Shown: positions 3,894 through 64,000 of the stretch, piece after piece
How positions within the stretch are numbered: the first letter of the stretch is position 1
Layout: each line of letters starts with the position of its first letter
Assembly: GCF_026151205.1 (NCBI RefSeq)
Contig: NC_087080.1
Span: 5,560,797 to 5,624,796, forward strand
Reading direction: 5' to 3'
Length of the DNA: 64,000 nt
Source: Bolinopsis microptera
Taxonomy: Eukaryota > Ctenophora > Tentaculata > Lobata > Bolinopsidae
Notes under the pieces: generated by a model
The model's input: the letters and a program-made list of their open reading frames with translations, nothing else
Database searches by the model: none
Told to the model about the DNA's origin: nothing
Position numbers and translations under genes: made by a program

Positions 3894-4217
3894 CTATTCA
3901 CAGGACACTATCCTGCAGCGCGGGGATGATCATCGATCATGTTCATCACATTAAACAGAAAATTCAAGGATATTTTTTTTAACGAACGCATTCAATGAAC
4001 CCATTCTTGGTTGAACGCATTCAAGTATAATACTTGAACGCATTCAGCTATAAGAGTATATTACCACCCACTTCTAGGGGTTGGACAATATTTAATCGTT
4101 AATAATATTATAAAACATCGAAGGTTTAAAAGTAATTTTTGTCATTGCTGTAGAGTTATTGTAACTTCTTTCTAGTCTTATTTCTGTTATAAATAACATA
4201 CTTCAGAACTTGATTTC
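3894..4217 (+). promoter_or_regulatory. Upstream region of the ciliary gene cluster
   Basis: This 324-bp stretch lies directly before TMEM107. It contains three copies of GAACGCATTCA (about 3982, 4013 and 4037), two of them arranged around TTCAAGTATAATACTTGAA as a palindrome. No TATA box or other core promoter element can be assigned with confidence. By position it should hold the promoter of the cluster. Confidence 0.3.
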
Positions 4218-4219
4218 AG
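4218..4219 (+). promoter_or_regulatory. Splice acceptor 2 nt before the TMEM107 start
   Basis: The sequence reads TTGATTTCAG, then CT, then ATG at 4222. An acceptor this close to the start codon implies either a 5' UTR intron or, more likely given the same layout at DYNC2H1, a spliced-leader trans-splice site. Confidence 0.5.
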
Positions 4220-4221
4220 CT

Positions 4222-4641
4222 ATGGCGATTGCGGAAAGAATTCTCCCGCCAAGATTCCTTTCACTCATCATTCAGATCATCATCACTATGAACCTGTTCT
4301 GGTTTCAAGAGCCAACAGTAAATGCATCCTTACCACTTGGAGCCTCAGAAGATGTCAGAAAAGCTACAGAGACAGAAGTGCTTGTTGCTTTGTCTCTCAG
4401 TATCACTTGCAATGTTCTGGAAATGTTCAGTCTGTTTATAGGTTTAAGCATCTTCAGTTACTCTACAGGGATGATCTCTACTTGCTGCCATGTCATAGGT
4501 TCAATAGTTTTGGCATTCATTCTCTTAGAATCTCTCTCAGTCACTTCCCTCTGGTATTGCTTTACCTTTACCTGCATACTTCCAGCTCTTGTTGAGTTAC
4601 TGACTGTTATTGTTATATCCCGTGTTCAGGGCGGTAGATAG
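4222..4641 (+). CDS. TMEM107: TMEM107, ciliary transition-zone membrane protein
   Basis: The product is a 139-residue four-pass membrane protein from a single exon, matching the roughly 140 residues of the vertebrate protein. Recognisable blocks are LPPRFLSL in the first membrane helix, NLFW, ASLPL in the first loop, LVALSLSIT in helix 2, GLSIFS and STGMISTCCH in helix 3, and LWYCFTFTCILPALVEL in helix 4. In other animals TMEM107 sits in the ciliary transition zone and recruits MKS-module proteins. The start is the ATG at 4222, two bases after an AG acceptor; an in-frame TTG upstream lies in the intron-like stretch. It is first of three ciliary genes in tandem. Identification rests on family resemblance and correct length. 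Confidence 0.9.
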   Translation: MAIAERILPPRFLSLIIQIIITMNLFWFQEPTVNASLPLGASEDVRKATETEVLVALSLSITCNVLEMFSLFIGLSIFSYSTGMISTCCHVIGSIVLAFILLESLSVTSLWYCFTFTCILPALVELLTVIVISRVQGGR

Positions 4642-5216
4642 ATTTATATTATGGTGATGAATTATGAAATGAACACAATTCGATTTAAATTGCAGCTGTT
4701 TATTAATCATATTTAAATGTATTTGACCTGTTGACTGGTGGTATTCTTAGGGTGATTATTGATTTAGCCATGTATGAACAGCAATCAATGAAAACATGGC
4801 AGACTTAGTTGTGAGATAGTTGTGAGATATTGACCTTATATCTATAAAATGTTTAACTTAATTTACCATACTGGAATGATTATGAACAGATATTTTATTT
4901 TATTGACATGGCAATATTTCTATTTATCTTAACTATTCATCATTTTCTAGTAAAAATGTATTTTTTACTTTTTGGTACCAAGCAAATGATGGGAAATTTA
5001 TTGCATTTGAATGTTTTCCAATCAAGATCATATACTAATAGAAATTCCCTGCTTTGCCAGGTGTTTTTGGAGAGAAATTTGACTAGATTCGAAATTCATG
5101 TTTTTCTTCTTGTTAAATACAAAAGAAATTGTGGTCAATACTTCAAAAGGTTACTAGATTTTTATAATATGGAGATATTATTGCCTGATCAGTGATCATT
5201 AATCTATAGCAAGGAA
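4642..5216 (+). promoter_or_regulatory. TMEM107-IFT22 intercistronic region
   Basis: These 575 AT-rich bases hold no convincing gene. An open stretch at 4908-5195 lacks family features and reads as AT-rich filler. The region ends with an AG at 5208-5209, seven bases before the IFT22 ATG. It should contain the TMEM107 3' end and, if the cluster is an operon, the trans-splice signal for IFT22. Confidence 0.4.
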
Positions 5217-6086
5217 ATGGCAACAAAAGTAGTAATGATAGGACCACCGCACAGCGGGAAAACGACATTAGCAAATTACTTGGCTGATGCCACAGACTCT
5301 ACCAGTGGAGAATACCACCCAACATCAGGTGTTCGGATTTTGGAATTCTCTTGCAATCTTCCTGATTCCAAAGCTGTTGATGTAAGTTGCAATGCATTTC
5401 TTTCAGTTTCATACATTTAAACAATGTAGCTAAGATGATCAATTACTAAAATATACTTGTTTTAGCTCTAGACAGAACCACATGATATGAAAAGGGGGGT
5501 TTTATAACAAGTACTTTAAGTATTTATACATTTATAAATCTCCTGCTCTCCCAGATAGAGTTGTGGGACTGTGGAGGTAATCCCCAAAATGAATCTTGCT
5601 GGCCCGCTATTGCAAGGGGAGCAGCAGCTCTTGTACTGGTATCAAATGTAGATATACCGGACTCAGAGGGCCAGTTCCTGGAAATGCTGTACTTGAGGTT
5701 TGCTGCTCAACATGGTCTCAAGGAGTCTCAATGTGCTGTATTCCTGAATAAAGTCGGAGGTGGGTTGAACATGACTTGATTGTTTCTTATTAACATTTAA
5801 CTGGCATTGAAGTTTAAGTAACAATCACTCTTTTAATTTACTTTATAATTCAACTCTGTGCTACTGGTACATTTAAAACGTTTTGTTTCTACATATCGTG
5901 ATGTCCTCAGAAACAGAAAAAGTTGGGAAAGTTCCGGCAATGCTGACCAAGGTGCCCCACGAAATTGTATCAATGGAGAATGGAAGTAATGTGCACGCAG
6001 CATTTTGTCGAGTTATATCTTCAGCATTAACGGCACAGTCAGAAGAGTGGCGGAAGGGAGAAAATCAAATTTTATCCGTTCAATGA
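5217..6086 (+). CDS. IFT22: IFT22 (RABL5), intraflagellar transport small GTPase-like protein
   Basis: Three exons (5217-5381, 5555-5759, 5911-6086) join in phase to 181 residues; the vertebrate protein has 185. The N-terminus carries the P-loop GPPHSGKTT (about residues 9-17), then GEYHPTSGVRILEF in the switch region, and exon 2 starts with the WDCGGN motif that replaces the usual DTAGQ of small GTPases, followed by ESCWPA. These are hallmarks of IFT22, a peripheral IFT-B subunit. Introns have GTAAGT and GTGGGT donors and CCCAG and CTCAG acceptors. A canonical G4 NKxD motif is not obvious, as in the family. The gene lies between TMEM107 and DYNC2H1 on the same strand. Confidence 0.92.
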
Positions 6087-6442
6087 CTTGTTTTGTTGAG
6101 ATATTTCTTATCATGAAATTGAAATGAAAAAGTTTTCACAGAGTCAACAGATATGTTGCTGCAGGTATTATGCATTGTTAAATTATATTGGAGCTATTAC
6201 AGTCGATTATGTTTAAAGAGTTGTATTGGAGTTGTATTGGACCAACACTATTTGAATTTGTATATTATTTATGGTTGTTGATCAATCTACAGTCGATAAG
6301 TTTTTTCTTGGGTGTTACCTCATGCTGAAGAAAATGTCATCTCAGTTACCAAAAGTTGTGTATAATAATTCAATTCAAAATAATATGAATAAATAAACCT
6401 AAGAATTTCCGCGATTTCTGAGCCTTGTACTCTTACTCAGCT
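6087..6442 (+). promoter_or_regulatory. IFT22-DYNC2H1 intercistronic region with poly(A) signal and acceptor
   Basis: This gap is 356 bp. Overlapping AATAAA signals occur at 6388-6393 and 6392-6397. About 42 bases later a pyrimidine-rich run ends in CTTACTCAG (AG at 6439-6440), then CT and ATG. A poly(A) signal followed at short range by an acceptor is the layout of intercistronic regions in trans-splicing operons. A stand-alone promoter has little room here. Confidence 0.55.
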
Positions 6443-9400
6443 ATGTCAGAAGATGATGAGAGATACAGGTTCATCTTCGACACAGTTTCTAAATATTGTC
6501 CTACCGAAACCGGATGGGACGAATTCAAATCCTCAGTAGAACTTGCTAAGTTTTGTGATGATGCAGCTACACCTCTTCTTTCGTGTGTCTTTGCTAAGCA
6601 AGGTAATTTCTCATTCCCCTTCAAATATTCCACTAAAAGACTTTTCTGATGGGATTTGTATTAAGGATTAAAATGATAGTTGTACATTCATGTGTTTTCA
6701 CTAAACTTCTCATTTCTAAATATCCACCATATGTTCCGGTATTGGATCCCCAAATGTATATTATTTTGATTTTTATTTACCGTACATAAAATTTGCAGGA
6801 GTGTCATTGCAGCTCCAAGTGGCAGAAAACGACGCTCAACAGATTGTCTTCTTGAAAAACAAACCATGCCTCCTGGATGACAAGAACATGAATTCCGCTC
6901 TAGCTGTCACGACCATCACAGAGACTCCTTCTCAAGCTCTTTATCTTGCTCTTAGCAAGGTATGTTAAATATTTGATATTTTAATTCTATCCATCCGGGG
7001 CAACATTTAAAATTAATTATTCTGTTCAGAAACAATGTTTGGACTACTCGTGCGTTTAAGTCTAGATCCATTTGGTTATCATTCACGTTCACAATTTTAG
7101 ATTTACTATCCGATGGTACGAAATACAGTTGATGCTAAGTTAGAGAAGCAGCTGTCTCAACTTGCAGCCTCTCTTGGACATGTCTCCAAAAAACTCGCCC
7201 CATCTTCTGACAATTTAGAGGATATCCAGGTTTGTATTTTGATCTTTGAACTTTGATTTTTTTAAAAAGATTTAAAAGCAAGTTTTCCAAAAAGTTGGTA
7301 TCTATGGCTTTACCAACTGTTTCCAGTTTTTGTTTGTGTAAACAATATAAAAAAATTCGTAGAGTGTAAAGGAGGAAGTGACATACTGGGAGAACTTGGC
7401 TAACAGGAGTAACAAACTGAGAGACCGAGAGAGGGCACAGTCGGTATTGGAGTTCCTGCAGCCAATCAGCAACGACATAACATCTCTCGGTAATTCTCAA
7501 ACTACCATTCCTAGAGTATCACCAGTGTTTTTTTTTGTATATTTTCAGTTCTTATATTCTAAACCCTTTAGTCTCATCTTATTCTATCAATAGCATAAGT
7601 CTGAGGTCTCTTTATTTCACCTTAACAAAGAATATAAATTAACGAAAACCCCGCCCCAGAGTCGACCCCGCTAGATAGGTGCCATGATAACATGGAGAAG
7701 ATACAGGACTATCTGGATGACTTGTGGAAGATGGTGCCGGATAGTGGAGCTCCATATGGCGAGGCCAGGATGAGGAACCTGCTTAGGGTTCTGGGTGACA
7801 CGTGGACAAGGTTAATATTATCCCACTTTCACTTTTAGAAATTCACATTTGTGATTTAGTCAGTGGTATGATATTATTGTCCTCTATGATAAGGTCACAA
7901 ATAATGACATACCGTGGACCCAATATTCCATATTCGATCATCTTGAGCCTGTAAGAGTCTGTTAGAGTCTTTAAGAGTCTGTTAGAACTTAGAGTACGGT
8001 AAAGTCTGTTAATTTACTATTTCTTTACTAATACTTAATACTTATACTTAACTAATACTTTACCAACACTTTACTAACTTTTTATCACCTTTCAGGTATA
8101 TACAACGGGAACTGAGTGCTTTGTCAGTTTGGGAAGACAAGTACCACGACATCAGAGACACTCTTGGCGGAGCAATATCAGTGTGTGATAGGTTCCACAG
8201 GACTACCGATATGCTTACTGTACAGTTCTGGAAACGGTAATTCTTTAATTATTATTTTTGTTTGAAGTTTTAAGACGTTTATTAATTTATAATAATGTGT
8301 GCACTGTATAATTCAAACTATCCGAAGAGTCAAACACGAACTAAGGTAGCTTTTAAGTCGGTATTGTAACTTACAAATGGTAAACAAGGCTGTGATTCCT
8401 GTGACATATTGATAAACTAACCCCTACATCGTGTCCAGGTACAGCGCACAGCCATGGCTGGGAGACAAGTTCGTCAGCAAGAGTGTCCAGGACCTGTCAG
8501 TTCGGTTGGAGGAGATACTGAACATTAGAGTTGTTCACGAGCAGCTCACCAGGTCTGTCTTCAAGCTCTAGACTTGTTTTTATTCTAGTAGATGATTTAA
8601 CAACTTTTCACTTTGAAATGTGTAAATTATTCCTTTAAATTTCCTGATAACTTAGGATCAGGGTACAGATTGCTTAATAAGCAATGCTTATGTCGGGATA
8701 TATAATTATATGAAGTAACTGTTATGATACCCAGGTTACTGTCAGAAACAGAACAAGGACAACTGAACACCGCCACCGCTTTCACCCCTTTCTCCCAGCT
8801 CAACTCTCTTTACAACACTCCCTATACCTTGACAAAGTGGCGTGCTGCTGTATCTCAATACGAGAGAGGTACGTACTAATTAATAATCATTATCTAATTT
8901 TCAATTAATAATTAGTAATTGTTCATCTTGTGCAGTGCTTCTAGCAGGGTTATTTAAAACCTTTACAACGGTATAAAGTTGTAAAGTTAATTAGGCTGCC
9001 TGATACTAGCTAGAGATGATGATGTTTCTTCAAACAAGCAAGATGACGTTATTATATTAGTTACACGTAAAAAGCAAGCTGGCGATACGTTACACATGCT
9101 TGTTGTGCACTTACACACACAACATCTCGACAATTCAGCGTCATTGAGACCACTGTGAGATCATGTTATAGTGCACGGTAGTCGCTACACATTGGGACCT
9201 GAAACAACAAGTTTATAAGACCCCAGCTAGATGGTAAGTAACGCGTTACGTAACGCTTTACGTGTTACTTACCATCTAGCTGGGGTTTAAGAAATCCTCT
9301 GGAGCACTATACTAGCGGTTACCTCTTATAGCTGAAGATGCAAGAGAATAACTTACAGTATATATCCAATACAAATAATGAAGTAATGACCTGATTGCTA

Positions 9401-12207
9401 CTGTGTCCCTTTCAGGTATGGTTCCAGCAGAGAAGAAGATCTCCGGAAAACTAAAGAAGCATTTCCATGAGATCGGAGCTCAGCCTCATCAACTTCTCAG
9501 AGAGTTTCAGAGGTTTGTGGATCATGTTTGTGAACGACAAAAGTTAAATTGTTACTGCTTATTCTTGGATACTGTTGATCGTATTCTGGAGAAAGATTGG
9601 ATGGTAAATCCTTTAAACCAGTCGTTTATCTCCTAGTACAACTATTACAGATCCAACTCACTACATAACTACCCTGAATATGTAACTAAACTATGTATGA
9701 TATGTTAAATATGTAAACTATGTAACCCCCACTCTCTCAGGTACAGAGAGCTCGTAATGAGACCAGCTGTACGAGATGAACTTGTAGCGGAGCGGGAAAC
9801 TCTGCTCGCACAGCTTCTCACCTACGTCCGCTCCCTCAAGGACGAGTTCAGCAAGCGCACGTCTGGTAATTAACTAATTAATTAATTATGTCGCTAAGTT
9901 CCGAAGTTAACATTATAAAATGCGAACAATAAAATATAATGGTCCGATCTGGAAATCACACCCACGATAGAGTTACAAGGCGCTCTACACAATTACTTTT
10001 GCCCCAATAACATGTCCTCTATAACATGTCCTCTATAACATGTCCTCAATAACATGTCCTCTATAACATGTCCTCTATAACATGTCCTCTATAACATGTC
10101 CTCTATAACATGTCCTCTATAACATGTCCTCTATAACATGTCCTCTATAACATGTCCTCTATAACATGTCCTCAATAACATGTCCTCTATAACATGTCCT
10201 CAATAACATGTCCCCAATAACATGTCCTCTATAACATGTCCTCAATAACATGTCCCCAATTACATGTCCTCTATAATATTAACCAGGGTACGGTAAAGAT
10301 AAGAGCACACTACAGACTGGTAAGAACCTGCCCGAACTGATTAACGTTGTGGTGTGGGTCCGACAGCTGATAGGGAGAGTCTCTGACACGAACAGCACTG
10401 CAGTGAATATCTTGGGAGATCTTCAGGGGTTCCAGAGCTTTACTGGGGAGTGCGGCGCGTTACAGCAGGAGATGTCTGCTTACATGAACGAACAGGTTAC
10501 ATATTTGAACACGTCCGGACGTTTTGGAACTTGTTTGAAATTCTCCTAAAATTTGCCCTTTTTGTCACAACATCCATAAGTGTTTTCGTTTACCTATTTC
10601 GTATACATATTTAAAGTCAAGTATCTGGTAACAATTTCATCGAAGGTTGAGATATGGGTGAGTGAAGTTGAGAACCTTCTGGAAGACACAGAGAACCCAC
10701 TAGCCCTTCAGATGGGTGGTAAACTCATGGACTTATCACATTCTGATGGTCAGTAGTTGTTAAATAATAATCACATTTCCATTTTAAAATTTTTACAGAG
10801 CTTGTTACCTTAAGTTATCAAGGTATGAGAGTAGTATCACTTCTTCATTAAAATTTGAATACGATACATATTTAATTGAATAAAATACATATTTAATTGA
10901 ATACAATACATATTTTATTTTAATTTGAATACACATAATATAACTGTTCCCAGGAAAGCTACGTGTATTCTACAGCGAGAGGCTAGTCTCCTTACTAAGA
11001 GAAGTAAGACAGCTCACTGCACTAGGATTTGTAATTCCCACTAAGATTCAGAGAGTAGCAGCTACTGCTCAGAAGTTCTACCGACATGGGGTGGTTTTGA
11101 AACAGGTGAGTTTGAGGTGGAGTTAAAGTGGTAAAAGTGGAGATAAATTGTTACAATCTGTTGCACGTGAAAACAAGTTTGAAATGTATCTGCGGATCTA
11201 GTTCTGTGATGGAAGTAGCCAAATAATGAGCTTTAAACGAACCAAGCAAGTTTTCATCCTTATTATTGAACTCAATTTAAAATTGAATTTTAAAAATCGC
11301 TAAAATACAAGCCAACCAGGTTGAGAATTTCTACAACTCGATAGACGAACAGATGCTGGAATGTCAGAAGCTGATGATGCTGGACAGTGCTGTTAGCTTT
11401 GAGGAGACTATTAAGAACCCTAAACCAGGAGTCAAGGGTAAAGGGAGTAAAGTTCAGGTAAGATTTGTGGACTGAATTATTGATATAATTAGTTGTATTA
11501 TTGATTTAAATTATCAATTTCGATTTTTCATTATAACATTCTCCATGAAATAAATTTTAGCATATAGTCATTGCTTCTTACTAGTCATGATCGGCGTTTG
11601 ATGTATAAAAACGATAAGAGCATGGCATTATTTTTTGTTCCATTGATTTGGAACTTTGATCAAATTATAATGATCTGGCAATGAATTGAAGCATGTTCTC
11701 ACAAGCTTAATTTGACATGTTATTATGAATAGAATAAATTTAATTTGGTAATTTAATTATTTAATTGTTTATTTAATGATTATTAATTAACTGACACACA
11801 GGTCACGTGGGATAATCCATCAGAGTTAGAGTCCTACATCAACAGACTGCAGGGTGCAGCTGACAGACTCACTATTGAGAACAGGAAACTTAGGAAATGT
11901 CATTTTGACATTGCTGACAAGGTCAGTTGAACTAAACACGGCCGTTTGTATTAAGATTTGAAAATTGTAAACATTTGCTCAAACTCGGTTAAATAATGAT
12001 ATTAGAAAAATCAAATTATTTACAAACTGTTGCCTCGTTAACGGTTCAAACGATTATGTTATATTACTGAAACTTTCTTCCATTTGACCGAGATACTTAT
12101 GTTTTAGGTGGTTAACCTGATGAGTATAGAATTGTTAAGACAACAGATGAGATGGAAGGAAAGTCTGAATGAGATAAGAGGAATCATGACCACACTTCAC
12201 CAACAAG
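6443..12207 (+). CDS. DYNC2H1: DYNC2H1 exons 1-16 (tail, residues 1-720)
   Basis: Exons: 6443-6602, 6799-6959, 7101-7229, 7363-7489, 7660-7810, 8096-8236, 8439-8552, 8735-8868, 9416-9512, 9741-9865, 10287-10495, 10646-10748, 10954-11105, 11320-11457, 11802-11921, 12108-12207. They encode the dimerisation and subunit-binding tail, with family words such as [15 protein letters not shown] and [10 protein letters not shown]. All donors are GT and all acceptors AG. The start is the ATG at 6443, followed by SEDDERYRF. Intron 10 is mostly a 14-bp minisatellite; intron 8 holds a 22-bp-arm hairpin at 9221-9285. Confidence 0.92.
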
Positions 12208-54200: not shown

Positions 54201-57200
54201 ATAACAGCCTGGAGAACTGGATTGAAGACTATTTCTACAAAGGACTCGCCTGGTAAGTACTTTGTTAATTCATTTCCCGATTTGTGAACTATATGAAGTA
54301 TTTTACTTTCTTTTAAAAAACTTAGATAAAATCTCCTCTATCACAAGTTCTTATCCCCTTCTCCACCTTCACCTCCACTTCCACCGCTAACACAAACCAC
54401 AGTTTTCCTGACAACACTTATTACATCTCCACTCCAGGTGTCATCGACACAAAAAGAACTTTGTAGTGAATAGGAGCACTGTTGCAACTGTAAACATGGG
54501 ACTATCTCACCTGACTGGGGCGAGGACCAAGCCCCAGTTTCTGTGTGGTCTTGTCAGAGGATTCGGAGCGAACCTGCCTCTTACTGAACGGGAAAGTCTG
54601 GCTAAAGAGGTGAAGTTTTATGTTTTATTGTTAAGACTTTAGAAATTTCTCAATTTGATAGAGCTGAATATATACGTCGGGGGCGAGAGAGATGTTTTAC
54701 TGGAGTTGACTTGGAATTGTCTTCTAACAAAGACTGGAGTCGTGTAGAAACGATAGAATGTTCCTACTAAGTAACGGCACAAACTCACAAGTAATTTATC
54801 ACAGATATTCAAGCTGGGTAACGAGACTGTACCCGACATGTCAGCTATACTGGATACCTACTACTCCCCCAAGTCCCAGAGACTTGAGACATACCAACTC
54901 CAGGTTCCATATCAATAATTTTACTTTTTTGTTTAAAAAAACTGCGTAATATTTAAAAACTATCTCATTCGGTAAAAACCATGCATGTCGTATGCTATTT
55001 TATGAATCTTTGCCATTTTCTGTTTGCTTTCAAGAGAATTTCTTGCCATTTGCTGTTTGCTAATAATAAAGAAATAAGAAATTATTACCAGTACATTGAC
55101 AGTATATTTATACAGGTACCGGACTGCAACTACAAAGATTTCTCGGAGCAGCCTCCACTAATCAGCACATGTGACACACAACGAGTCAGAGATCTTCTCG
55201 ACCCCTGGATCTCCAAATTGGAACCCTTCGTCCTGGTGGGACCTGAGGGTAGTGGCAAGAGTCTCCTCCTTCAGACCATGTTCAAGTTAGTTGATGATAT
55301 ATTGTATCTTACCACTATTTGTTTCTTAAACCATGGTAATCGATGACTTATTCTCTTTATTCCCAGTTTTAACTCGATAGCTATAGTGTTACTGTTAGTA
55401 TGCGTAAATAAATGAAGTGACCGCTGTTGTGCCAAAAAATAACCGCACTATAATACCGCACTTTATCGCAGGGAGTTGAGCAGTACAGGTATTGCGGTAG
55501 TTCACTGCAGCTCCGAGACCTCCCCCAGACAGGTCTTACAGAAACTCCTCCAATTCTGTAGAACTATGAGCTCCAACGTTGGCCGGGTTCGTGTGAATTG
55601 ATTTCAATAATTAATCGAAATTTTTACTATATTAAAACTGCTACTAAATTTTATTAGTTTCGAAAACATCCTTTTTGGATCTAAATAACTAAATTACCGA
55701 ATAATATTCTCATTAAATTTCTGATCCAGGTACTCCGACCAAAAGAAACAGAGAAACTAGTCCTGTTCCTGAAAGGAATCAACCTGGTGAAGCCTGACTC
55801 CTGGGGCACCTCCATGTTATCCTCCTTCCTACAGCAACTTATAACCTACCGGGGATTCTACGAGGATAACCTAGAATGGGTTAATCTGGAGGGTGTTCAG
55901 ATTGTAGCGACTATGTCTGCAGGAAACACTCTGGGAAGGTACGAGCTGTCTCCACGTCTGACGAGTATTATGCACGTGGCGTATATGAGTTACTCTGGGC
56001 GCGAGGAGCTACACTCCGTGTATAGCGCCTACCTCTACCCTCTCCTTCAAGTCCAGGTTGTTGTTTTTTACTTAACTGTACTACGTTAATTAATTGCTCA
56101 TAATTACCTTATTAAGTTGTTTACTTAACACTTAACATGTGTGATTGTGTGAGTTGTACTGAGACGCGTTCTCGAATTATTTTGGCGGATGAAAGTAATT
56201 GACCTATATATTATTCAAATGAATACTAATTATAAAAACCAATTTTGATCGAATTTAATTGTCGCTAAAGCCTCAATTTCTTCTACTTTTGTTAATCTCA
56301 CCACAATCCAGGTGTCAAATCACCCAGTATGGGTGGCGCCTAAGAGCGTACAGGCTCTAGCCAGCAGTATGATGAGCGTGTACGAGCAGGTCAGGGAGAA
56401 CTTTACCTCAGATATGTACCCTCACTACATCTTCAACCCCCGACATCTCACTATGTGGACACTTAATCTCACCAGGTAATGATTATTGAAAAATAGGAAT
56501 AATTGTTGTCCTGGTTTTTATCTAAAACACGCGCAGGTTATTTTAGTTTCGTAATCGTTTCTTCCTGTTGTAATGCACCTATCTTGCAGATACGATGCAG
56601 TGAGTGGAAGTGAGCACGGAACCTCAGGACCCCTCCTCCTGGCCTGGGCCTACGAGGCCCGAAGACTCTTCAGGGACAAGTTGGCTAGCCAGCAACATGT
56701 GGAGAAGTTCGACGGTATCCTAGCAACTGTGCTGCGCAGCGATTGGGGAGTTGATATCTCCCTGCTGGATAAAAAGTACTTTGTAACGTATGGTGATACG
56801 AGTGGAGTGACTGTTGCCTCCCCACATGGCAAAACTCTGGGTCTGATCTCGAGTAAAGACTACAAGGAGATCATTGCAAAGGGAGCTAAAGTGTACAGCA
56901 GGGAAGTGCGAGATTTGAAGCTTCACTTCTTCCCAGAAGTATTGTCCAGCATGGCACTGGTAGAGAGAGTATTGACGGCTCCCGGTGGTAATCTCCTTCT
57001 AGCAGGACGAAGTGGAGTTGGTAGGAGAACCGCGATATCTGTCATTGCTCACATGCACAGAATGCAGGTCATCTCACCGAAAGTGTCCCGGAACTACTCT
57101 CTCAAACAACTTAAGATTGATCTGAGGAGTTGTGTCCAGGCGGCGGGAGTGGAGGGAGAGCAAGTAGTGCTGTTGTTAGAGGACCATCAGCTCTTAGATC

Positions 57201-60200
57201 CTACCTTTTTGGAGAGCATCAACTCTTTGCTTTGTTCCGGAGAAGTGCCGGGTCTCCTTACACCAGAGGAGCTAGATACTCTCATATCCCCTCTCAAAGA
57301 ACAGCTCGAGACAGATGAGTTTGACGGCACACTAGGCCAGTACTTCATCAGACGGATAATGAGAAATCTGCACATCGTCTTCATCCTAGACAGCTCCAAC
57401 CCTAACTTCAGGCCACAATGTGAAGCCAACCCAGCTCTTTATACTAAGTGTCAGTTTATCTGGCTGGAAAGCTGGGCTCCCAACACCATGGCCCGACTAC
57501 CCAGGATGGTGATACCAGAGATAGAGAAGAGAGAAGCAAGTTCCACCTGATACACAACTCTGTAGCAGACAGCACTCCTCGTCAGTACCTGGCCTCACTG
57601 GACGTTTACAACAAAGTCCTGGATACGAAGAAGAGGGGCATCAAGAAAAAGCAGGAGCATCTGATCGCTGGTGTTAGTAAACTTAACGAAGCAAAAACTC
57701 TGGTGGATGATCTGAAAGCAAAGGCTGCGGTGAAGAGCAAAGTGTTAGCGGAAAAGCAGAAGGAGGCTGACGAGGCGTTGAATGAGATCACAGCAAGAAT
57801 AGGACAAGCTTCTGAAAACAAACAAGAGATGGAGGTACTGAAAGGTAAGCTTGGAGAAGAGACAGTTAAACTTGAACAAAGGAAAGAAGGCTATTGACAT
57901 CGAGCTGGCGGAAATTCAACCGCTTGTTGACGAGGCTAAGGCAGCGGTTGGCAACATCAAATCGGAGGCTCTATCCGAGATCCGCTCCCTAAGAGCTCCT
58001 CCTGACGTGATCAGGGATATCTTGGAAGGAGTTCTACAGCTGATGGGTATATTCGACACCTCCTGGGTAAGTATGAGAAGTTTCCTTGCCAAGAGAGGTG
58101 TGAAAGAGGAGATTATATCATTCGATGCGAGAAAGATTGCTCCAGAGATCAGAAATTCAGTCGAAGCACTCCTTCAAAAGAACAAGAAATCATTCGACCC
58201 TAAGGTAGCCAAGCGAGCAAGTGTTGCATGTGCCCCGCTAGCATCATGGGTGAGAGCTAACGTACAGTTCAGCATCGTTCTGGAGAAGATAGGGCCACTG
58301 GAAGGCGAACAGAGGGGGCTGATGAAGAAGGTGCAGAAGTCACAGATGCGAGTGGAGAATCTCGAGAAGGCTCTGGACGTTGTGGAACAGGAGGTGGCGG
58401 AAATGAGATGTCGTTTCGACAAGAGAACAACTGAGGCTAGTAGGCTTGCCATTGAGCTGGACCAGGCCACGGAGACTATCACTGCTGCTGAAAATTTGGT
58501 TGGGAAACTTGTTGGGGAACACACGAGGTGGACAAGTCAGGTAGAGGTCCTCCAATCAGAACTGGAGGAGTTACCCCTCCTGTCCCAGGTAGCGGCCTCT
58601 TTTATCACCTACCTTGGAGCATATCCTGAGGATGTGAGGGCGGAGCTAGTACGGAAGTGGAGTAAAGAGGTGGGAGTGTCACGTTTTGAACTCAACAGGT
58701 TCCTGTCCACTGAGAGTGAGCAGTTACAGTGGAAAGCGGAAGGGTTACCCTCTGATGCGTTGTCAGTTGAGAACGCCCTGATAATACTGCACGGCACCAG
58801 GACCCCCTTCCTTATTGATCCCTCGTGCAGGGCTTCTTCCTGGTTAAAAGAAAACCTGAAGAACCAAAGACTTGAGGTGATTAATGCTAATGATAATGGG
58901 TTTATGACAGCACTTGAGCTGGCTGTCAGGTTTGGAAAGACTCTTCTGATCCAGGAGATGGACACTATAGATCCTGCACTATTCCCTCTACTCAGAGGTG
59001 ACTTTATATCTAGCGGTCCAAGATCTGTAGTTCAAGTTGGAGAAAAGTTGATGGATTACAATGAAGATTTCAAATTGTTCCTGACCACACGAAACCCTAA
59101 ACCGGACTTACCACCAAGCTCTGTGGCGCTGCTGAGTATCGTGAACTTCTCGACCACCAGAGCTGGACTAACAGGACAGTTATTGGCAGTGACGATACAG
59201 CACGAGAAACCACAGCTGGAGGAAAGGAAGAGCGCCCTCCTGGCGAAAGAGGAATCCCAGAAAGTGGAGCTGAACAAGTTGGAGGAGTCGTTACTTGAGG
59301 AGCTGGCAAACGCTCAGGGCAGTATCTTGGAGAACAAGTCTCTGATTGAGAGCCTAAACCAGACGAAAAAGAACAGCGTGGTGATCATGGAGGCGCTGAC
59401 TGAGTCTCAGAACTTGCAGACGTCTTTGGACGAGGAACGGAACATCTACCTGAAGTTAGCGGAGACCGGAGCTACACTCTATTTCGTGATTAAATCACTG
59501 AGTTCTGTGAACTGCATGTACAGGTTCAGTCTGACTTCTTTCTTGACGGTCTTTAAGGAGGCGCTCCAAGCTAAAACCTCCAGCGGAGACAAAGACAGGA
59601 TCGAGTCGCTTGTGGCCACTCTTAAAGTTCTGTTGTATGAGAGTATCTGCAGGTCGCTGTTCAAAGCGGATCGGCTGATGTTTGCACTGCATCTGGTGCA
59701 TGGCATGCACCCTGAAATGTTCAACGAGAGCGAGTGGGAGCTGCTAACCGGACAGATAGTAACCGATACCATGTTGAGGAGACAAGAGTCTCAGCAAGCC
59801 ATGGCAGAGAAGTACCCCTCCTGGATATCAGCAGAGTTGGTACCAGCAGTCGCTCTCTTGGAGTCAGCAACTCCAGCTCTCTTTAGAGAACTACACTTGG
59901 AGGACGAGAACTTGTGGAGCAACTTCGGAAGTGCTAAGGAGTGCGAAAAGGAGATTCCTAGGAGTGTCAGTAGTCAGGTGTCTGAATTTCAGAAGTTGCT
60001 GATAGTCCAGACTCTCAGACCAGATAGGTTGATCAGCAGCATGCAGCTGTTTGCTCAGAGAGCTCTGGGAGTCCGGGAACTGTCACCGCCGGTTGTCAAC
60101 TTGAAAAGGTTGTACCAGGAGCAGACCAAATGTCATGAACCCATACTCGTCCTCATCTCCCCCGGATCTGACGTGAGTCAGGAGCTTCAGGAACTTGCTC

Positions 60201-61893
60201 ACCAAGTTGTGGGACCCACTAACTACGTTCAAGTTGCTATGGGCCAGGGACAGTCCCTATACGCGCTGCAGCAGCTGAGAGAGTGTGCTGGGAAGGGAAT
60301 GTGGCTGTGCTTGAAGAACCTCCATCTAGTAATAGCTTGGGCGCCAGTGCTTGAAAAAGAGATCAATGCTCTCAAACCACACCAAAACTTCAGACTGTGG
60401 TTGACAGCTGAACCGCACCTGAAGTTCCCTCTAGTCCTACTTGAGAGCTCTCTAAAAGTCACATACGAGTCGCCTCCTGGCGTGAAAAAGAATCTGCTCC
60501 GAACCTACGAGGCGTGGACTCCTCAGTTTATTGAGAAGGGACATCAACCTGTTAGGAGCCAGCCTTGTTCGCTCTTGCTTGGTTCCACGCTATCATCCAG
60601 GAGAGAAGAAACTTCATTCCTCAGGGCTGGACTAAGTTCTACGAGTTCAGTAACGCTGATTTGAGGTCAGGTGCAGATATTATAGATAGACTCTGCACCA
60701 GCACTGGCAGCATTCAATGGGACTTCATACACGGACTGTTTGAGAACGCAGTCTTCGGAGGCAGGGTAGATAACAACTACGATCTGGAGGTTCTCCGAGC
60801 TTATCTTCACCAGTACTTTGACCGGGATGTACTGGGTGGGAAGGGAAGGAAGAAGCTTGCTGGTATCCTGGAACTCCCACTCTCAGTCAACCACAAAGAC
60901 TTCGTGAAAGCAATCACAGCACTCCCTGAAACTGATACACCTGCTATGTTTAACCTACCCCAAAACGTAGACCGATCGCAACAGAGAAGCGTGGCTAAAA
61001 GCGTGCTATCTCAGCTAGTTCTGGTTTCCCGACCTAACCTGGAGGACGAACAGTTCGACAAGGCCCGCTGGACCAAGGATCTGTCCCCATTCCTACACTT
61101 ATGGAAGAGATTAAACCAGGGCAGTGAACTTGTGAAGCTATCTTCAGATCAGATCCCGAACCCTGGGGAGAATGACCCACCTCTACTGGCCTTCCTTCTT
61201 CTGGAGAGACAAGTTGCTATCAAACTCCTGCAACTAGTCCACACTGATTTGTCCAGAATCAGCAAGGTCATACGTGGAACTCTACTCCTGACAACCGATG
61301 TGAAAGACAACGCAACAGCTCTTCTGAAGCACGAGGTTCCTGGTTCCTGGTGTAGGAAGTGGGAAGGACCTGTTGCTCCTATACACTGGCTACGATCTCT
61401 AGTTAGCAAGACTTTAGCGCTTGGAGGCTGGGTGGAGAGATGTCAGGCTGGTGCCTTGCTCACATCCCCTGCCGACTTATCAGAACTATTTAACCCTGCA
61501 GTGTTCCTGAATGCTTTAAGACAGGAATCAGCCCGGAGACTGAATCTACCGATCAACAGTTTAGAGTTTGTTTCTCACTGGGGACCCAGTTCGGGACTAA
61601 GCAAAGCTAAATGCCCGGTAACTATCGAGGGGTTGACTATTGAAGGGGCTCTGTTTGATGGTCACAAGTTGGTGGAATGTGCCCGAGACTCACCCTCCAA
61701 TTCTCCAATCTCCAATTGTAGTGTAGCTTGGGTACCAGCTGGACAGGGTGGCAATAAAGACAACCAGTTGGAGACACCAGTATATTACAACAGTTTGAGG
61801 GAGCAACAAGTTACATCTATCAGGATACCCTGCCCGGGATCACCAGCACTCTGGAAACTTAAATCTGTGGCGCTCATACTCAAGAATCAGTGA
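6443..61893 (+). CDS. DYNC2H1: DYNC2H1, cytoplasmic dynein-2 heavy chain (53 coding exons)
   Basis: This is the motor subunit of dynein-2, which drives retrograde intraflagellar transport. The exons span 55.4 kb and encode about 4,255 residues, against roughly 4,300 in vertebrates, and all 52 junctions keep phase. In order: N-terminal tail (1 to about 1100), linker, AAA1 with GPAGTGKT (1675-1682) and CFDEFNR, AAA2 with GPSGCGKT (1965-1972), AAA3 with GPEGSGKS (2271-2278), AAA4 with GRSGVGRRT (2627-2635), coiled-coil stalk with microtubule-binding domain, AAA5, AAA6 and a C-terminus ending LKNQ. AAA4 lacks the Walker-A lysine, as in other DYNC2H1 proteins. Three one-base frame disruptions lie in the last exon. 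Introns 16, 30 and 34 hold antisense genes. Confidence 0.95.
9221..9285. repeat. Perfect 22-bp inverted repeat in DYNC2H1 intron 8
   Basis: CCCCAGCTAGATGGTAAGTA at 9221 is matched exactly by its complement at 9264-9285, with a 21-base loop that itself contains TTACGTAACG. Each arm includes GGTAAGTA, a good donor match, but it lies deep in the intron. Confidence 0.75.
10002..10276 (+). repeat. 14-bp minisatellite, about 19 copies, in intron 10
   Basis: The unit is TCCTCTATAACATG with occasional CCCCAAT or CTCAAT variants. The array fills most of intron 10 and stops about ten bases before the exon 11 acceptor, so the branch point and pyrimidine tract are either inside the array or squeezed into its last copy. 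Confidence 0.9.
12497..13549 (-). CDS. Intronless rhodopsin-like GPCR with an in-frame TGA near its N-terminus
   Basis: The gene is antisense in DYNC2H1 intron 16. The minus strand opens at ATG 13549, reads [20 protein letters not shown], hits TGA at 13487-13489, then continues open to 12497 with seven hydrophobic segments. TM1 has GTVGN, TM7 has NPILYF (NPxxY-like), and TM3 ends in IRT instead of DRY. The C-tail is short and basic. The sequence after the TGA has no usable ATG before TM1 (the first codon of that part is GTG), so either the TGA is a mutation or sequence error, or a separate 5' exon is spliced to an AG at 13477-13478. The ligand is unknown. Confidence 0.75.
14323..22151 (+). 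CDS. DYNC2H1: DYNC2H1 exons 17-30 (tail to linker, residues 721-1354)
   Basis: Exons: 14323-14450, 17812-17939, 18110-18203, 18379-18536, 19036-19219, 19397-19474, 19650-19781, 19975-20097, 20215-20364, 20555-20743, 20921-21014, 21197-21348, 21491-21644, 22015-22151. Exon 20 uses the acceptor before AGGCTGGCT; an AG 12 bases upstream would break phase. Exon 30 carries the strongly conserved linker block [19 protein letters not shown]. Intron 17 contains the LINE insertion and intron 20 the SINE; intron 29 begins with an 11-bp minisatellite ten bases after its donor. Confidence 0.92.
14608..16530 (-). CDS. LINE reverse transcriptase frame
   Basis: The frame has 640 residues. RT blocks in order: [49 protein letters not shown] and the catalytic YADDVDF, followed by a thumb and a C-terminal region [10 protein letters not shown] with GRVGRHQSN and DRKAWREL. 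It starts at ATG 16530, one base after the endonuclease stop, in a different frame. In related elements the two domains sit in one polyprotein, so a one-base frameshift between about 16535 and 16562 is likely, although termination-reinitiation is possible. Confidence 0.85.
   Translation of the reverse strand: MSEERKQLLQQLNNNEYRDRTALRAKINRLSNDITKRLKTLRVELANSLADSIATIDEGRRMFEAARQLSGKQKMGAGSVSVFNTDNQLVDNERDKAEIIRQYFEEHYTGPDSEPPLQPFTGNPRPLQNPITAFEVELAAKKLKNGKAVGPDGIPNEFLKHSPEIFYSTFAQLTNRSFELHEHVPSFTEGYLTPLQKPGKPLGPPKSLRPLCLLNGTRKILSMIVLKRIQRQVSQYTGPWQNAYKPGHSCANIVWTQRILVSVVKEKRWSLHKMGIDMSSAFDTIKRSVLLDILADAGCSEDDIRLVRYLLANTDLKIKVNSTISGEFIVMIGAFQGDSLSGNLFTLYLAAALYHLRAVMSYLRPNPPIAENLLPLEWEYADDVDFTDEDKSNLESLLPICKEILEEWNLFVNESKTEFTHFYLAGKNEVDNKGETLRGREPWRSSISLGSKLCSIEDVKRRCILANIAFQNYKKVWEQGRRIPLKIRLKIYEAQVVSILMYNCNSWATSKQLLQKLDVCHRNHLRTIIGMTYPNVIRNVTLYKRCEVVPLSERVARARWRMLGHILRSDNNSPAQLALHFAVESQSLMRGRVGRHQSNLLKTILNDLSDRNFRLVNTDDLYHLRFLATDRKAWRELSMI
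16532..17701 (-). CDS. LINE endonuclease frame
   Basis: This 389-residue frame encodes an apurinic-type endonuclease of the exonuclease-endonuclease-phosphatase fold. Visible catalytic boxes are GTWNVCGL (about residue 32), [26 protein letters not shown] and the final SDHKLV. A second in-frame ATG before [11 protein letters not shown] is a good alternative start. The frame ends in TAG at 16534-16532. One base later the reverse transcriptase frame has an ATG, giving TAGCATG. Confidence 0.85.
   Translation of the reverse strand: MTAKVSTFNASRKIAGFLVYATLFIMATTLNFGTWNVCGLSTTYRQHFVAEDIDRYNLDILALQETKTREYLETTLPGHHRLFLFDQRHDRHGGLGFIVNKRFLECIVSHHQISDRVVYMDFKLSAKRVDQPPCHIRIVNCYSPTNPKSVQNPRLATQFYDELLEAISVPARFEVWMLGDFNAKLGKRSPVDVENGLQVNIGRHGVGRRNENGERLLHFLTANGLFAANTSFSHRSRHITTRTGWIRDRATRKSKPYFQQIDFILCKSRSKALLTDARSYAGTKHRSDHKLVVAKADFSQRFNLYRESRAFQKSYNTTTLIGSKQAQQEYQQELHQILEQTVSDPDFSSNNTEQQFDMLFGVVKEAAVSTVGFREPQRKRNHSSDSQVV
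18734..18993 (+). mobile_element. tRNA-derived SINE, 260 bp, 13-bp target-site duplication
   Basis: The head resembles tRNA-Gly(CCC), with A box TGGTGTAGTGG (18741-18751), anticodon-loop CTCCCAA and a perfect B box GGTTCAAATCC (18783-18793). A non-tRNA body of about 190 bases follows and ends in TATCTTGTTGT. The direct repeat GTAAATCTAAACC occurs at 18721-18733 and 18994-19006, which proves insertion. The body family is not one I can name. It lies in DYNC2H1 intron 20, and its end is only about 30 bases from the exon 21 acceptor. Confidence 0.88.
21654..21905 (+). repeat. 11-bp minisatellite (about 23 copies) abutting the exon 29 donor
   Basis: The unit is GTGTGTTATCA, nearly invariant. The array begins ten bases downstream of the exon 29 splice donor (exon end 21644). 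Because 11 is not a multiple of 3, all three frames are open and give cysteine-valine-rich conceptual peptides, but there is no reason to think they are translated. Confidence 0.92.
22397..23179 (-). CDS. Single-exon proline-rich, basic hypothetical protein, antisense in intron 30
   Basis: The ATG at 23179 begins [20 protein letters not shown] and the product has 260 residues; an upstream TTG-led extension is not needed. The N-terminal third is tyrosine-, glutamine- and proline-rich (PPPPYQ, a PY-type motif). The middle is strongly basic ([18 protein letters not shown]) with repeated LKPRSKS and LKPRTRS serine sites. The C-terminal part has KKSVSFSD, which fits the RVxF protein-phosphatase-1 docking pattern. 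There is no signal peptide or membrane helix. I do not recognise the family. The even length and sensible composition argue for a real gene. An AG lies about ten bases before the ATG on this strand. Confidence 0.6.
   Translation of the reverse strand: MDQSTMMYQRMYQFYAPAPPSPMTPEFNQVFVPPPPYQENIPQNHCYKAGARIAPAHSLVFQFPYFAQETPNLDSTYEHAYCHNLILPRPGADLKNSTETQTPPGSSDNMETPSRSSENERAKRIRSWWRKLVQKITKKRLKAVLKPRSKSMSSVLKPRTRSISCDDLYIVQRKPETQSTTTPAAQFLKNQSSPVKIPTPGVSSRKHPLLTQDSPNLLTTIKKSVSFSDITTNSVLPFKEGGKGVVTSSYIVNGYVFTKM
23376..23435 (-). promoter_or_regulatory. Three CACGTG E-boxes upstream of the antisense gene
   Basis: CACGTG occurs at 23376-23381, 23410-23415 and 23430-23435, about 200-260 bases upstream of the ATG at 23179. 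The palindromic E-box binds bHLH-zip factors (USF, MYC/MAX, MITF/TFEB types) in animals. Its use here is inferred from position only. Confidence 0.35.
24267..24459 (+). CDS. Candidate first exon of a secreted or membrane protein in intron 30
   Basis: The ATG at 24267 opens 64 codons with a hydrophobic N-terminal stretch ([16 protein letters not shown]), then a tyrosine-rich acidic part ([14 protein letters not shown]), and ends at a good donor, AGGGAAG/GTATGT. No second exon can be fixed. A CACGTG lies about 30 bases upstream. This may be chance, since the family is unknown and there is only one exon. Confidence 0.25.
24703..24880 (+). repeat. (TTTCTC)n hexamer microsatellite
   Basis: About 29 copies of TTTCTC with one TTTCTA interruption form a pure pyrimidine tract of nearly 180 bases. 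Such mirror-symmetric homopurine-homopyrimidine tracts can form triplex DNA. The apparent Leu-Ser and Lys-Arg frames in it are repeat artefacts. Confidence 0.95.
25019..26259 (-). CDS. Ly6/uPAR-like GPI-anchored protein, antisense in intron 30 (partial model)
   Basis: Three exon candidates lie in order. Exon A (26163-26259) has a start codon and signal peptide ([14 protein letters not shown]), then LSCHHCTS, the LxCxxC opening of the LU domain, and a GTAATA donor. Exon B (25671-25767) is cysteine-rich ([14 protein letters not shown]), follows A in phase and ends at a GTAGGA donor. Exon C (25019-25164 or 25019-25138) has FCYSDYCNN, like the closing CCxxDxCN, then a serine-rich omega-site region and a hydrophobic tail ([14 protein letters not shown]), as in GPI-anchored proteins. 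B and C do not join in phase, so an exon is missing or a boundary is wrong. LU-domain membership is the best reading. Confidence 0.6.
26260..27913. other. AT-rich intron 30 sequence, nothing assigned
   Basis: Open stretches here are short, start at non-ATG codons or have biased composition. A triplet of GTGCGACTAATATACGA-like words at about 27380-27430 is a small tandem repeat. No RNA gene or domain was seen. Confidence 0.5.
27914..27943. repeat. Perfect 30-bp palindrome
   Basis: CACGCACTGTAGTTC is followed directly by its exact complement, with no loop. A third half-copy (CAGTACGTG) follows within 15 bases. Confidence 0.85.
28092..28454. mobile_element. 363-bp MITE with 19-bp perfect TIRs
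   Basis: The left end is GTGGCCCAGAAGTAACTAC and the right end is its exact complement, ending at 28454. The next bases (CCACAC versus ACACAT) are also similar. There is no coding capacity. A related terminus (CTCTGGGCCACCTTG) occurs near 39946, so the family has other members. No clear target-site duplication was found. Confidence 0.8.
29029..29144. repeat. 116-bp hairpin with perfect 24-bp arms
   Basis: GCCTTATAAGGTAATGAACA and four further bases at 29029-29052 are matched exactly by the complement at 29121-29144. The GCCTTATAAGGC-type end is itself palindromic. It is probably a small MITE. Confidence 0.8.
29477..30031 (-). CDS. Putative LINE ORF1-like coiled-coil protein, 184 residues
   Basis: From ATG 30031 the frame reads [15 protein letters not shown] and is rich in K, E, S and L, with a likely coiled coil ([21 protein letters not shown]) followed by [12 protein letters not shown] coiled coil followed by a KSWSD(I/V)V-like motif is typical of the first open frame of some CR1/L2-type LINEs. 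No RNA-recognition or zinc-knuckle domain and no adjoining RT were found. It may therefore be an orphan fragment or an unrelated intronic gene. The identification is tentative. Confidence 0.4.
   Translation of the reverse strand: MDFTVKSVNNLEKEFTKYNLDIRKALKEAKVTNFHDMNPIALIDLDKDILVSFMESLTKMINSSLELCRSAAETIDDLKTKQVENQGKSIKLQEELSSADTEKKEKKSWSDTVNNNSATTVAPVNKVLKSAVNNNDRSENYLIYDAEDEQDENATNDMLVDTILSTTEFLSSLLSMSQTIRRDN
30100..33767. other. AT-rich intron 30 sequence with minor tandem repeats
   Basis: No gene is supported. There is a five-copy 11-bp repeat (GTTAAATTGTG) at about 31196-31248 and a two-copy repeat around 32600-32660 (ACGACACAC...ATATGCGCATA). A 69-codon minus-strand frame at 33439-33648 begins with ATG but has no recognisable feature. 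Confidence 0.5.
33768..33930. repeat. 55-bp sequence present twice direct and once inverted, giving a perfect hairpin
   Basis: Copies at 33768-33822 and 33823-33877 are direct and essentially identical. A third, inverted copy at 33876-33930 overlaps the centre CTAAATTTAG. Copies 2 and 3 form a loopless palindrome with arms of about 54 bases. Each starts TGCTGGGACTTTTTTCTATT. The absence of divergence suggests a very recent rearrangement or an assembly artefact. Confidence 0.92.
33931..35560. other. Intron 30 sequence with a GC-rich repeat copy and a doubtful open frame
   Basis: 35105-35165 is the second copy of the repeat at 1230-1335. Next to it, a minus-strand frame (35525-35157) is open for 122 codons without an early ATG. 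It may belong to the same unknown element. Elsewhere there is only AT-rich sequence with short AAATAGTACTGT repeats near 34365-34400. Confidence 0.4.
35561..35735 (+). repeat. 24-bp minisatellite, about 7 copies
   Basis: The unit is AAAAGGTGGGATATAAATGA plus four bases. Because 24 is divisible by 3, frames on both strands stay open and give repetitive IPPFSFIY or KRWDINKT peptides, which are not credible genes. Confidence 0.9.
36137..36375 (+). repeat. Two adjoining short tandem repeats
   Basis: A 22-bp unit (TTAGTAGTTACTAATTACTA) is repeated about three times at 36137-36215. A block of about 45 bases (ACAAATTAC...AAGTTATTC...AAGTAAA..GTTAAAACACCC) occurs twice in tandem at about 36280-36375. 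Confidence 0.6.
36376..37485. other. AT-rich intron 30 sequence, nothing assigned
   Basis: Only short random open frames. A GAATTCCGGACAAATTCCGGAC-type duplication occurs near 37170-37200. Confidence 0.5.
37486..38084. mobile_element. 600-bp foldback element; third arm copy at 41498-41614
   Basis: The left arm (37486-37611) begins ACCCGTCCCAATCTCG and contains ATTCATTAAGC; the right arm (37985-38084) is its diverged complement and ends GAGATTGGGACGGGT. A further copy in the right-arm orientation lies at 41498-41614. The arms are about 125 bases with substitutions, and the centre is non-coding. Confidence 0.7.
38827..39042 (+). repeat. 72-bp tandem repeat, 3 copies
   Basis: Copies start at 38827, 38899 and 38971 with GGTCGAGACATGCAG. 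The first two are nearly identical and the third diverges at its end. The period is 24 codons, so a frame stays open, but it has no start context or homology. Confidence 0.92.
39043..40280. other. AT-rich intron 30 sequence with a MITE end
   Basis: A terminus resembling the MITE at 28092-28454 occurs near 39930-39960 (GTGTTGATTTACTCTGGGCC). No gene is supported. Confidence 0.4.
40281..40432 (+). repeat. 20-bp tandem repeat with a CACGTG in every unit
   Basis: The unit GTTCACCATGCCGACACGTG and its diverged relatives place CACGTG at 40295, 40315, 40335, 40355 and 40375, exactly 20 bp apart. A sixth lies out of register at 40427. The spacing is close to two helical turns, so bound bHLH factors would sit on one face of the DNA. 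Confidence 0.85.
40938..41040 (+). repeat. Dispersed repeat, inverted copy at 45218-45319
   Basis: AATCTATTACATTTATTGAG and AAATATTTTAAACG are shared with the complement of 45218-45319, together with ACCCAGGA at the end. The copies are in opposite orientation, one in intron 30 and one in intron 34. Confidence 0.65.
41041..42409. other. End of intron 30, no gene seen
   Basis: Apart from the repeat arm at 41498-41614, the sequence is AT-rich. The last bases before exon 31 form the acceptor ATATTCTGCAG. Confidence 0.4.
42410..44054 (+). CDS. DYNC2H1: DYNC2H1 exons 31-34 (linker, residues 1355-1573)
   Basis: Exons: 42410-42543, 42975-43145, 43477-43649, 43874-44054. Exon 31 continues exon 30 without a missing residue ([14 protein letters not shown]), so the 20.3-kb intron 30 hides no coding exon of this gene. 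Exon 32 contains [19 protein letters not shown], a diagnostic dynein linker sequence. Exon 31 ends at an unusual GAG/GTTTGA donor; the next exon starts A/TGCCAG and restores an arginine codon. Confidence 0.93.
43209..43326. repeat. G28 run with GAGGTAAAAT inverted and tandem repeats
   Basis: Twenty-eight consecutive G (43209-43236) are followed by TCATTTTACCTCATT, then ATGAGGTAAAAT repeated about three times, then GACCCCCC. The block can fold as a hairpin with G/C ends. It lies in intron 32 of DYNC2H1. Confidence 0.8.
44055..46967. other. First part of intron 34, no gene seen
   Basis: AT-rich sequence with a short CT run (44204-44220), an inverted dispersed repeat copy at 45218-45319 and an ATAGAATATAGAATATAG run near 46447. 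Open frames lack features. Confidence 0.45.
46968..47818 (-). CDS. MYND zinc-finger protein, two exons, antisense in intron 34
   Basis: Exon 1 (47409-47818) and exon 2 (46968-47250) join in phase across a 158-bp intron (donor AG/GTTGGT, acceptor GTCAG/GTACAA) to give 230 residues. The N-terminus is a complete MYND finger: [24 protein letters not shown]. It is followed by an acidic low-complexity linker with three TDPSSEA-type repeats, then a C-terminal region of about 120 residues ([35 protein letters not shown]) with no family I recognise. MYND fingers usually bind proline-rich peptides of partner proteins. An AG lies two bases before the ATG, as at TMEM107 and DYNC2H1. Confidence 0.8.
47873..47892. 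repeat. G20 run upstream of the MYND gene
   Basis: Twenty G (with five more after one T) lie about 55 bases upstream of the MYND start codon, where they would be a C tract on its coding strand. They could form a G-quadruplex in its promoter or leader. Confidence 0.85.
48637..49116. mobile_element. 480-bp foldback MITE with about 120-bp arms
   Basis: The left arm (48637-48757) starts AAACGAGCCATCACGG and includes TTCGGCTATTACGTCTGAAA and AGGATAAAATAAAAACTG; the right arm (48993-49116) is its complement with few differences. The centre is AT-rich and non-coding. The long, similar arms suggest a fairly young Foldback-type element. It lies in intron 34. Confidence 0.82.
49117..49960. other. End of intron 34, no gene seen
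   Basis: Non-coding sequence, with CGTTTGCG and GTCGTTTGCGACCCG palindromic words near 49112-49145. It ends in the exon 35 acceptor TTTTTGTTTCAG. Confidence 0.45.
49961..56475 (+). CDS. DYNC2H1: DYNC2H1 exons 35-52 (linker end to AAA3/AAA4 start, residues 1574-2487)
   Basis: Exons: 49961-50111, 50258-50375, 50603-50758, 50901-51046, 51214-51360, 51519-51666, 51786-51952, 52111-52218, 52319-52534, 52681-52781, 52975-53084, 54126-54252, 54438-54609, 54805-54903, 55116-55285, 55472-55586, 55730-56056, 56312-56475. AAA1 spans exons 36-41 with Walker A in exon 37, CFDEFNR in exon 38 and [11 protein letters not shown] in exon 39. AAA2 starts in exon 43. AAA3 Walker A is in exon 49. Most introns here are 100-250 bp. 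Exon 46 is separated from exon 45 by a 1-kb intron that is mostly a TTAA-flanked transposon. Confidence 0.93.
53269..54107. mobile_element. Non-autonomous piggyBac-like element, TTAA target duplication, 839 bp
   Basis: TTAA at 53265-53268 and 54108-54111 flanks ends that are inverted repeats: GGCCACAGGGGGGGGGTCCG on the left and the complement of GGCCACAGGGGGGGGTCGAG on the right. Inside are further inverted repeats (GTTACATA/TATGTAAC and GAGGTTAACC blocks near 53540-53665) but no transposase frame. A TTAA duplication is the hallmark of piggyBac; these termini are not the usual CCC type, so the assignment is inferred. Its right end lies 14 bases from the AG of the exon 46 acceptor. Confidence 0.75.
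56590..61893 (+). CDS. DYNC2H1: DYNC2H1 exon 53, a 5.3-kb terminal exon (residues about 2488-4255)
   Basis: One uninterrupted exon encodes AAA4, the full stalk and microtubule-binding domain, AAA5, AAA6 and the C-terminal domain. Landmarks: GRSGVGRRT (57005-57031), [15 protein letters not shown] in the first stalk helix, [20 protein letters not shown] near the microtubule-binding tip, [15 protein letters not shown] in AAA5, [20 protein letters not shown] in AAA6, and the terminal LKNQ. The frame changes three times: minus one base near 57500-57541, plus one near 57881-57890, minus one near 60560-60565. Family alignment continues across each change, so these are one-base indels, from sequence error or real mutation. 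The other 52 exons show none. Confidence 0.92.
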
Positions 61894-62304: not shown

Positions 62305-62490
62305 CTGTCCTCAACTACTTGTCCTAACTATCTGTCCTCAACTACTTGTCCTAACTATCCGTCCTCAACTATTTGTCCTAACTATCTGTCCTCAACTACT
62401 TGTCCTAACTATCTGTCCTCAACTACTTGCCCTAACTATCTGTCCTCAACTACTTGTCCTAACTATCTGTCCTCAACTATTTGTCCTACT
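62305..62490. repeat. 27-bp minisatellite (about 7 copies) abutting the transporter stop codon
   Basis: The unit is CTGTCCTCAACTACTTGTCC plus TAACTAT. The array runs up to and includes the SLC22-type stop codon (TAG, 62491-62489 on the minus strand), so it forms the start of that gene's 3' UTR. TGTCCTCA also occurs inside the final codons, hinting that the array grew out from the gene's end. Confidence 0.88.
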
Positions 62491-63891: not shown

Positions 63892-64000
63892 CTGAAGAAA
63901 GTTTAACATTATCGACCATAGATGTATTTATGATCATAATTTATGCGATATTAAAATAAGACGGACGAAAATGTTAATTTTATGCTAAAAACTAAAATGT
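63892..64000 (-). other. Probable intron or upstream part of the SLC22-type gene
   Basis: AT-rich sequence upstream of the proposed acceptor. If the ATG at 63937 were used instead, 63892-63937 would be coding. Confidence 0.4.

Follow-up and report, generated by a model that had tools for sequence, protein, structure and literature searches.

Three ciliary genes, TMEM107, IFT22 and DYNC2H1, lie head to tail on the + strand of the Bolinopsis microptera DNA analysed here (64,000 bp, the window, to which positions without a contig name refer), with coding gaps of 575 and 356 bp. The best explanation of this arrangement is that the trio forms an operon-like polycistronic unit resolved by spliced leader (SL) trans-splicing, a reading on which we consider the balance to be even. 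One promoter before TMEM107 would give rise to a continuous pre-mRNA spanning the three genes. The pre-mRNA would be cut by 3′-end processing after each coding region, and trans-splicing of the SL RNA just upstream of the IFT22 and DYNC2H1 start codons would generate three capped monocistronic mRNAs. The operon reading is favoured since it unites the common strand, the gene spacing, the features of the second junction and the genome's SL machinery, each sequence clue being modest. TMEM107 is taken to be a transition-zone membrane protein, IFT22 a component of IFT-B, and DYNC2H1 the dynein-2 heavy chain, the motor of retrograde IFT.

The identity and order of the genes, as given in a first-pass annotation of the window, were confirmed by Pfam and PDB matches and by the coordinates. 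TMEM107 (4222..4641, +) is a single coding exon matching the Pfam family TMEM107 (4.2e-28) over profile positions 1-122 of 123. IFT22/RABL5 (5217..6086, +) was modelled by hand splicing as a protein of 181 aa encoded by three exons (5217-5381, 5555-5759 and 5911-6086); when this model was searched against PDB, the best three matches were IFT22/RABL5 chains. DYNC2H1 (6443..61893, +) extends over about 55 kb including introns, its exons from ~9.6 to 56 kb being covered by spot checks. Exons 1-9 are in frame when joined, and the three distinct PDB sequences that they matched at E<=0.001 were all DYNC2H1. DYNC2H1 was the sole match of the frame at 10283 at E<=0.01 and the top match, by a narrow margin, of the frame at 50825 (57.9 bits vs 54.4 for a cytoplasmic dynein). 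A 940-aa frame at 57842 matched human DYNC2H1 with 1142 bits vs 426 for the next dynein, and the Dynein_C domain is located in the frame that ends at 61893. In the spot-checked frames and the first nine exons, the matches along the locus are collinear with the human protein. When 4100-6602 was used as a DNA query, its own place was the only match in the 264.65 Mb assembly.

The IFT22-DYNC2H1 gap (6087..6442, +; 356 bp, GC 0.30) looks like an operon junction. It carries a doubled poly(A)-type signal, AATAAATAAA (6388..6397, +), and 43 nt separate this element, likely to be the IFT22 poly(A) signal, from the acceptor-like AG of DYNC2H1. A doubled signal arose in 0.4% of 2000 resampled gaps; an AATAAA occurred anywhere in 32% of them and was located in the final 50 nt in 5.3%. 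The end of AATAAATAAA is 45 bp from the DYNC2H1 start codon; if the signal is used, the ends of the IFT22 and DYNC2H1 mRNAs would be some tens of nt apart. The short distance argues against the main alternative, in which the three genes are separately promoted, SL-trans-spliced neighbours brought close by happenstance, with their promoters in the gaps or in the preceding 3′ UTRs. This alternative is a substantial possibility, held below even, and much of the evidence described below bears on it.

Acceptor-like sites at the start codons were scored with a matrix derived from 21 introns, against a background of 2011 ATGs in the window. Before the TMEM107 ATG, AGs end at 4206 (15 nt) and 4219 (2 nt) (4205..4219, +; scores 1.0 and -1.1), and the better score was equalled by 16.5% of background ATGs. 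At IFT22 the AGs end at 5192 (24 nt) and 5209 (7 nt) (5191..5209, +; scores 2.8 and -5.5), the former being equalled by 5.6%. At DYNC2H1 the site (6421..6440, +), with its AG 2 nt before the ATG, has a score of 1.9, equalled by 10.2%. None of the three sites is convincing singly, and as a group they are only weakly above background; they had appeared striking by eye, a judgement that was toned down after matrix scoring. The distance of 24 nt between the best site and the ATG at IFT22 counts against the operon.

As a control, 20 small-GTPase starts elsewhere in the genome were collected. An in-frame ATG was present in 16, of which 15 were scored; L074, which differs from L073 at 3/321 bases, was left out. 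These starts also lean to acceptor-like sites (one-sided Kolmogorov-Smirnov p 0.006; 2/15 in the top 10% of background), a lean that may have been favoured at L071 and L073, where there were two possible ATGs and the choice was made after the sites were seen. The sites would therefore mark general use of the SL and not operons, and by themselves they cannot demonstrate an operon. A tandem array of Ras-family genes is located on C1 (C1:12425539-12459122), with at least 22 matches listed, 14 of them near full domain in one frame.

SL trans-splicing is known in ctenophores, and the Hormiphora leader sequence has been given (PMC8527503; this and the other PMC papers are cited here from excerpts). 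The end of that leader followed by GTA occurs 10 times in the Bolinopsis genome vs once for the reversed control. By our own reading, five occurrences are in leader-like copies (L020-L024) and five are apparently unrelated. The remaining SL RNA follows in four of the five copies (L021-L024), L020 being a lone leader-like copy. A similarity search was carried out with one SL RNA and the best 40 of 321 candidates were scored; these fall into tandem arrays on three contigs, C13, C5 and C3. Apart from the query itself, which ranked first among the 40, the matches were 92-94% identical. Six copies displayed share the AATTTGAG leader end, a GTAAG donor, a hairpin, a CATCTTTTGG stretch and a 3′ stem, and represent one leader type. 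The CATCTTTTGG stretch resembles an Sm site, and one copy folds at a z of -3.2. By these features SL RNA genes are present in the genome that carries the trio. The arrays are at 12.78-12.95 and 15.24 Mb on C13, 21.34 Mb on C5 and 13.51 Mb on C3, with repeat periods of ~591 bp on C3 and ~855 bp on C5; in part of the C13 arrays the period is ~880 bp. One glutamate receptor encoded by the genome has Mnemiopsis ML032222a as its top PDB match, and in a second one kainate receptors rank higher. A 119-aa segment of ML032222a has a best match of 81% identity in the genome, so Mnemiopsis leidyi itself appears an unlikely source.

In Hormiphora the SL was found on 56% of Iso-Seq reads (PMC8527503), and SL use seems to be general in ctenophores, a point in favour of separately promoted neighbours. 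Separate capped 5′ ends, which had earlier been put forward among the observations that would refute an operon, are insufficient alone, since in an SL-using animal the operon mRNAs would each carry a capped SL.

The spacing of the genes was compared with that of other genes nearby. A B9-domain search, run as a control, gave a match at C9:5681409-5682513, on the same strand and ~57 kb past the window. It belongs to a second tandem trio, DNALI1, a PARP-domain gene and B9D2, whose coding gaps measure 503 and 632 bp, the end of the PARP-domain gene having been read by eye. The trio occupies C9:5671102-5682558 on the same strand, 46-58 kb past the window; its similar spacing and its two ciliary genes favour the operon. 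Pfam matches were 2.8e-94 for DNALI1, 1.1e-6 for the PARP catalytic domain and 8.2e-56 for B9D2. The acidic N-terminal exons assigned to the PARP-domain gene are without Pfam match; if they and the PARP exons are separate genes, the group would comprise at least four genes, with a different gene on the far side of the 503 bp gap. A GNAT domain noticed by eye in the same gene had no Pfam match and was dropped. Just upstream of DNALI1, a gene was sought by eye and none was recognised. The acceptor-like sites of the second trio are no better than chance, the share of background ATGs with sites as good being 28% for DNALI1, 31% for the PARP-domain gene and 69% for B9D2.

Across the 160 kb scanned, the four tandem pairs with coding ends placed have gaps of 575, 356, 503 and 632 bp, so tight spacing is locally common. 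The tight gaps of the second trio, like the 595 bp that separate DYNC2H1 from a convergent transporter frame, favour separate promoters. The proposal of a possible operon in the first-pass annotation stands in part: it is strengthened by the SL RNA arrays and the operon-like IFT22-DYNC2H1 junction, and weakened by the weak acceptor-like sites and the local frequency of short gaps. The presence of two closely spaced trios containing ciliary genes in a stretch of ~118 kb is, in turn, less readily explained by separately promoted neighbours. Other families that have ciliary members are located elsewhere: Tctex-1 on C2, C7, C8 and C12, DLIC on C4 and C8, Transmemb_17 on C2 and C5, B9 genes other than B9D2 on C1, C5 and C15, and further dynein heavy chains on C1, C3, C6, C9 and C12. 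This dispersal, which is in line with separate promoters, makes the trio a local group and not a general rule. A general regional gathering of ciliary genes was considered and rejected, as only B9D2 of the Tctex-1, DLIC, Transmemb_17 and B9 families is near. Two similar sets of B9-domain matches, B9D1-like by eye, are found at C15:101888-106096 and C5:21015329-21015787, and perhaps represent an unmerged haplotype or a duplicate.

The chance expectation of a same-strand trio under random gene order depends on the class of genes considered. For 70 core ciliogenesis genes it is 1.5e-4 to 4.4e-4 per genome, and for 400-800 ciliary genes 0.03 to 0.65. With the broad list of 800 it is 0.22 to 0.65, and such a trio was seen in 16-46% of simulated orders, a frequency that favours the separately promoted neighbours. 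In all these figures class sizes and gene numbers were assumed, and the class was picked after the genes had been seen.

The TMEM107-IFT22 gap (4642..5216, +; 575 bp, GC 0.28) contains neither AATAAA nor ATTAAA, which counts against an operon of three genes; variants including TATAAA at 4843 and AGTAAA at 4949 are present. That IFT22 and DYNC2H1 alone are co-transcribed, with TMEM107 an independent neighbour, is improbable: it would fit a first gap that is longer, lacks both canonical signals and contains a TATAAA, and a poly(A) signal placed beside an acceptor-like site at the second junction only, but TATAAA 4843 or AGTAAA 4949 could serve as TMEM107 signals.

For the unit of three genes, a weak TATAAA-type motif ~110 bp before the TMEM107 start (4109..4114, +) is a possible promoter; another TATAAA is at 4188. 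A scan for TATA[AT]A gave one match in the TMEM107-IFT22 gap and none in the IFT22-DYNC2H1 gap. X-box-like promoter motifs were not above shuffles in any of the seven regions scanned. In the ~4 kb upstream of TMEM107 no gene was recognised, so TMEM107 is possibly the first gene of the unit. The nearest long + strand frame upstream ends at window position 146 and is without Pfam match. Farther upstream are a reverse-transcriptase frame and a HEAT-type gene with sub-threshold matches only; a transportin-like label given by eye was abandoned, as only sub-threshold matches of HEAT/importin type were obtained. The downstream border of the cluster is an open frame of the MFS/sugar-transporter family (62489..63940, -), convergent with DYNC2H1. 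The labels TMEM94-like and SLC22, also given by eye, were dropped. In the 64-kb window no tRNA was detected, and no Rfam family reached its gathering score.

Operons resolved by an SL have been described in nematodes and also in tunicates, chaetognaths and Hydra (PMC7986045, PMC12460157). The operons of tunicates, chaetognaths and Hydra, in which the SL is not specialised for downstream genes, are similar to the trio in having close genes on one strand in an SL-using animal and, at one trio junction, a short distance from poly(A) signal to acceptor. They differ in being supported by RNA evidence. At 356-575 bp, the coding gaps of the trio are larger than the operon distance cut-offs used in tunicates (60-84 bp, PMC7986045) and chaetognaths (250 bp, PMC12460157), which counts against the operon, though those cut-offs refer to distances between annotated genes and not coding ends. 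Nematode operons have a median intercistronic distance of 99-981 bp, depending on species and assembly (PMC7986045 table), so 356 bp does not fall outside that range. In nematode SL2 operons the genes are likewise head to tail and are resolved by SL trans-splicing; as against SL2, the six SL RNA copies displayed here are of one leader type. Within the same phylum and with the same leader family, clusters of neighbouring genes in Hormiphora and Mnemiopsis share a 5′ leader exon, which has been read as SL trans-splicing, with a mapping artefact possible (PMC8527503).

Operons were not reported in ctenophores as of 2021, according to the excerpt of PMC7986045, and the word operon is absent from the excerpts of PMC8527503, PMC11797021, PMC12221973 and PMC10232365. 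Among the matches listed in literature searches, titles and the starts of abstracts revealed nothing on the trio cluster or on ctenophore operons. SL operons as a kind are already known; as far as these searches show, the ctenophore phylum and the ciliary content would be new.

Locomotion in ctenophores depends on giant compound cilia. A broader proposal, to which we give slightly less than even weight, is that ctenophores have SL operons, that the trio is one of them, co-expressing genes of the transition zone, IFT-B and the retrograde motor, and that DNALI1/PARP/B9D2 is a second, the two making up a ciliary expression neighbourhood. If true, a ctenophore operon would be relevant to the question of whether SL operons originated more than once. 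Its ciliary genes would also set it apart from the operonic genes of chaetognaths, which lean to nitrogen and protein metabolism (PMC12460157).

Several frames lie within DYNC2H1 in antisense orientation. They include a rhodopsin-type GPCR frame (12497-13486, -), a MYND-finger frame (47225-47851, -) and a non-LTR retrotransposon with endonuclease and reverse transcriptase frames (14608-17710, -). Two other long antisense frames are without Pfam match (22397-23281, -) or have sub-threshold Pfam matches only (29477-30118, -). Genes nested in introns have been described in Hormiphora (PMC8527503).
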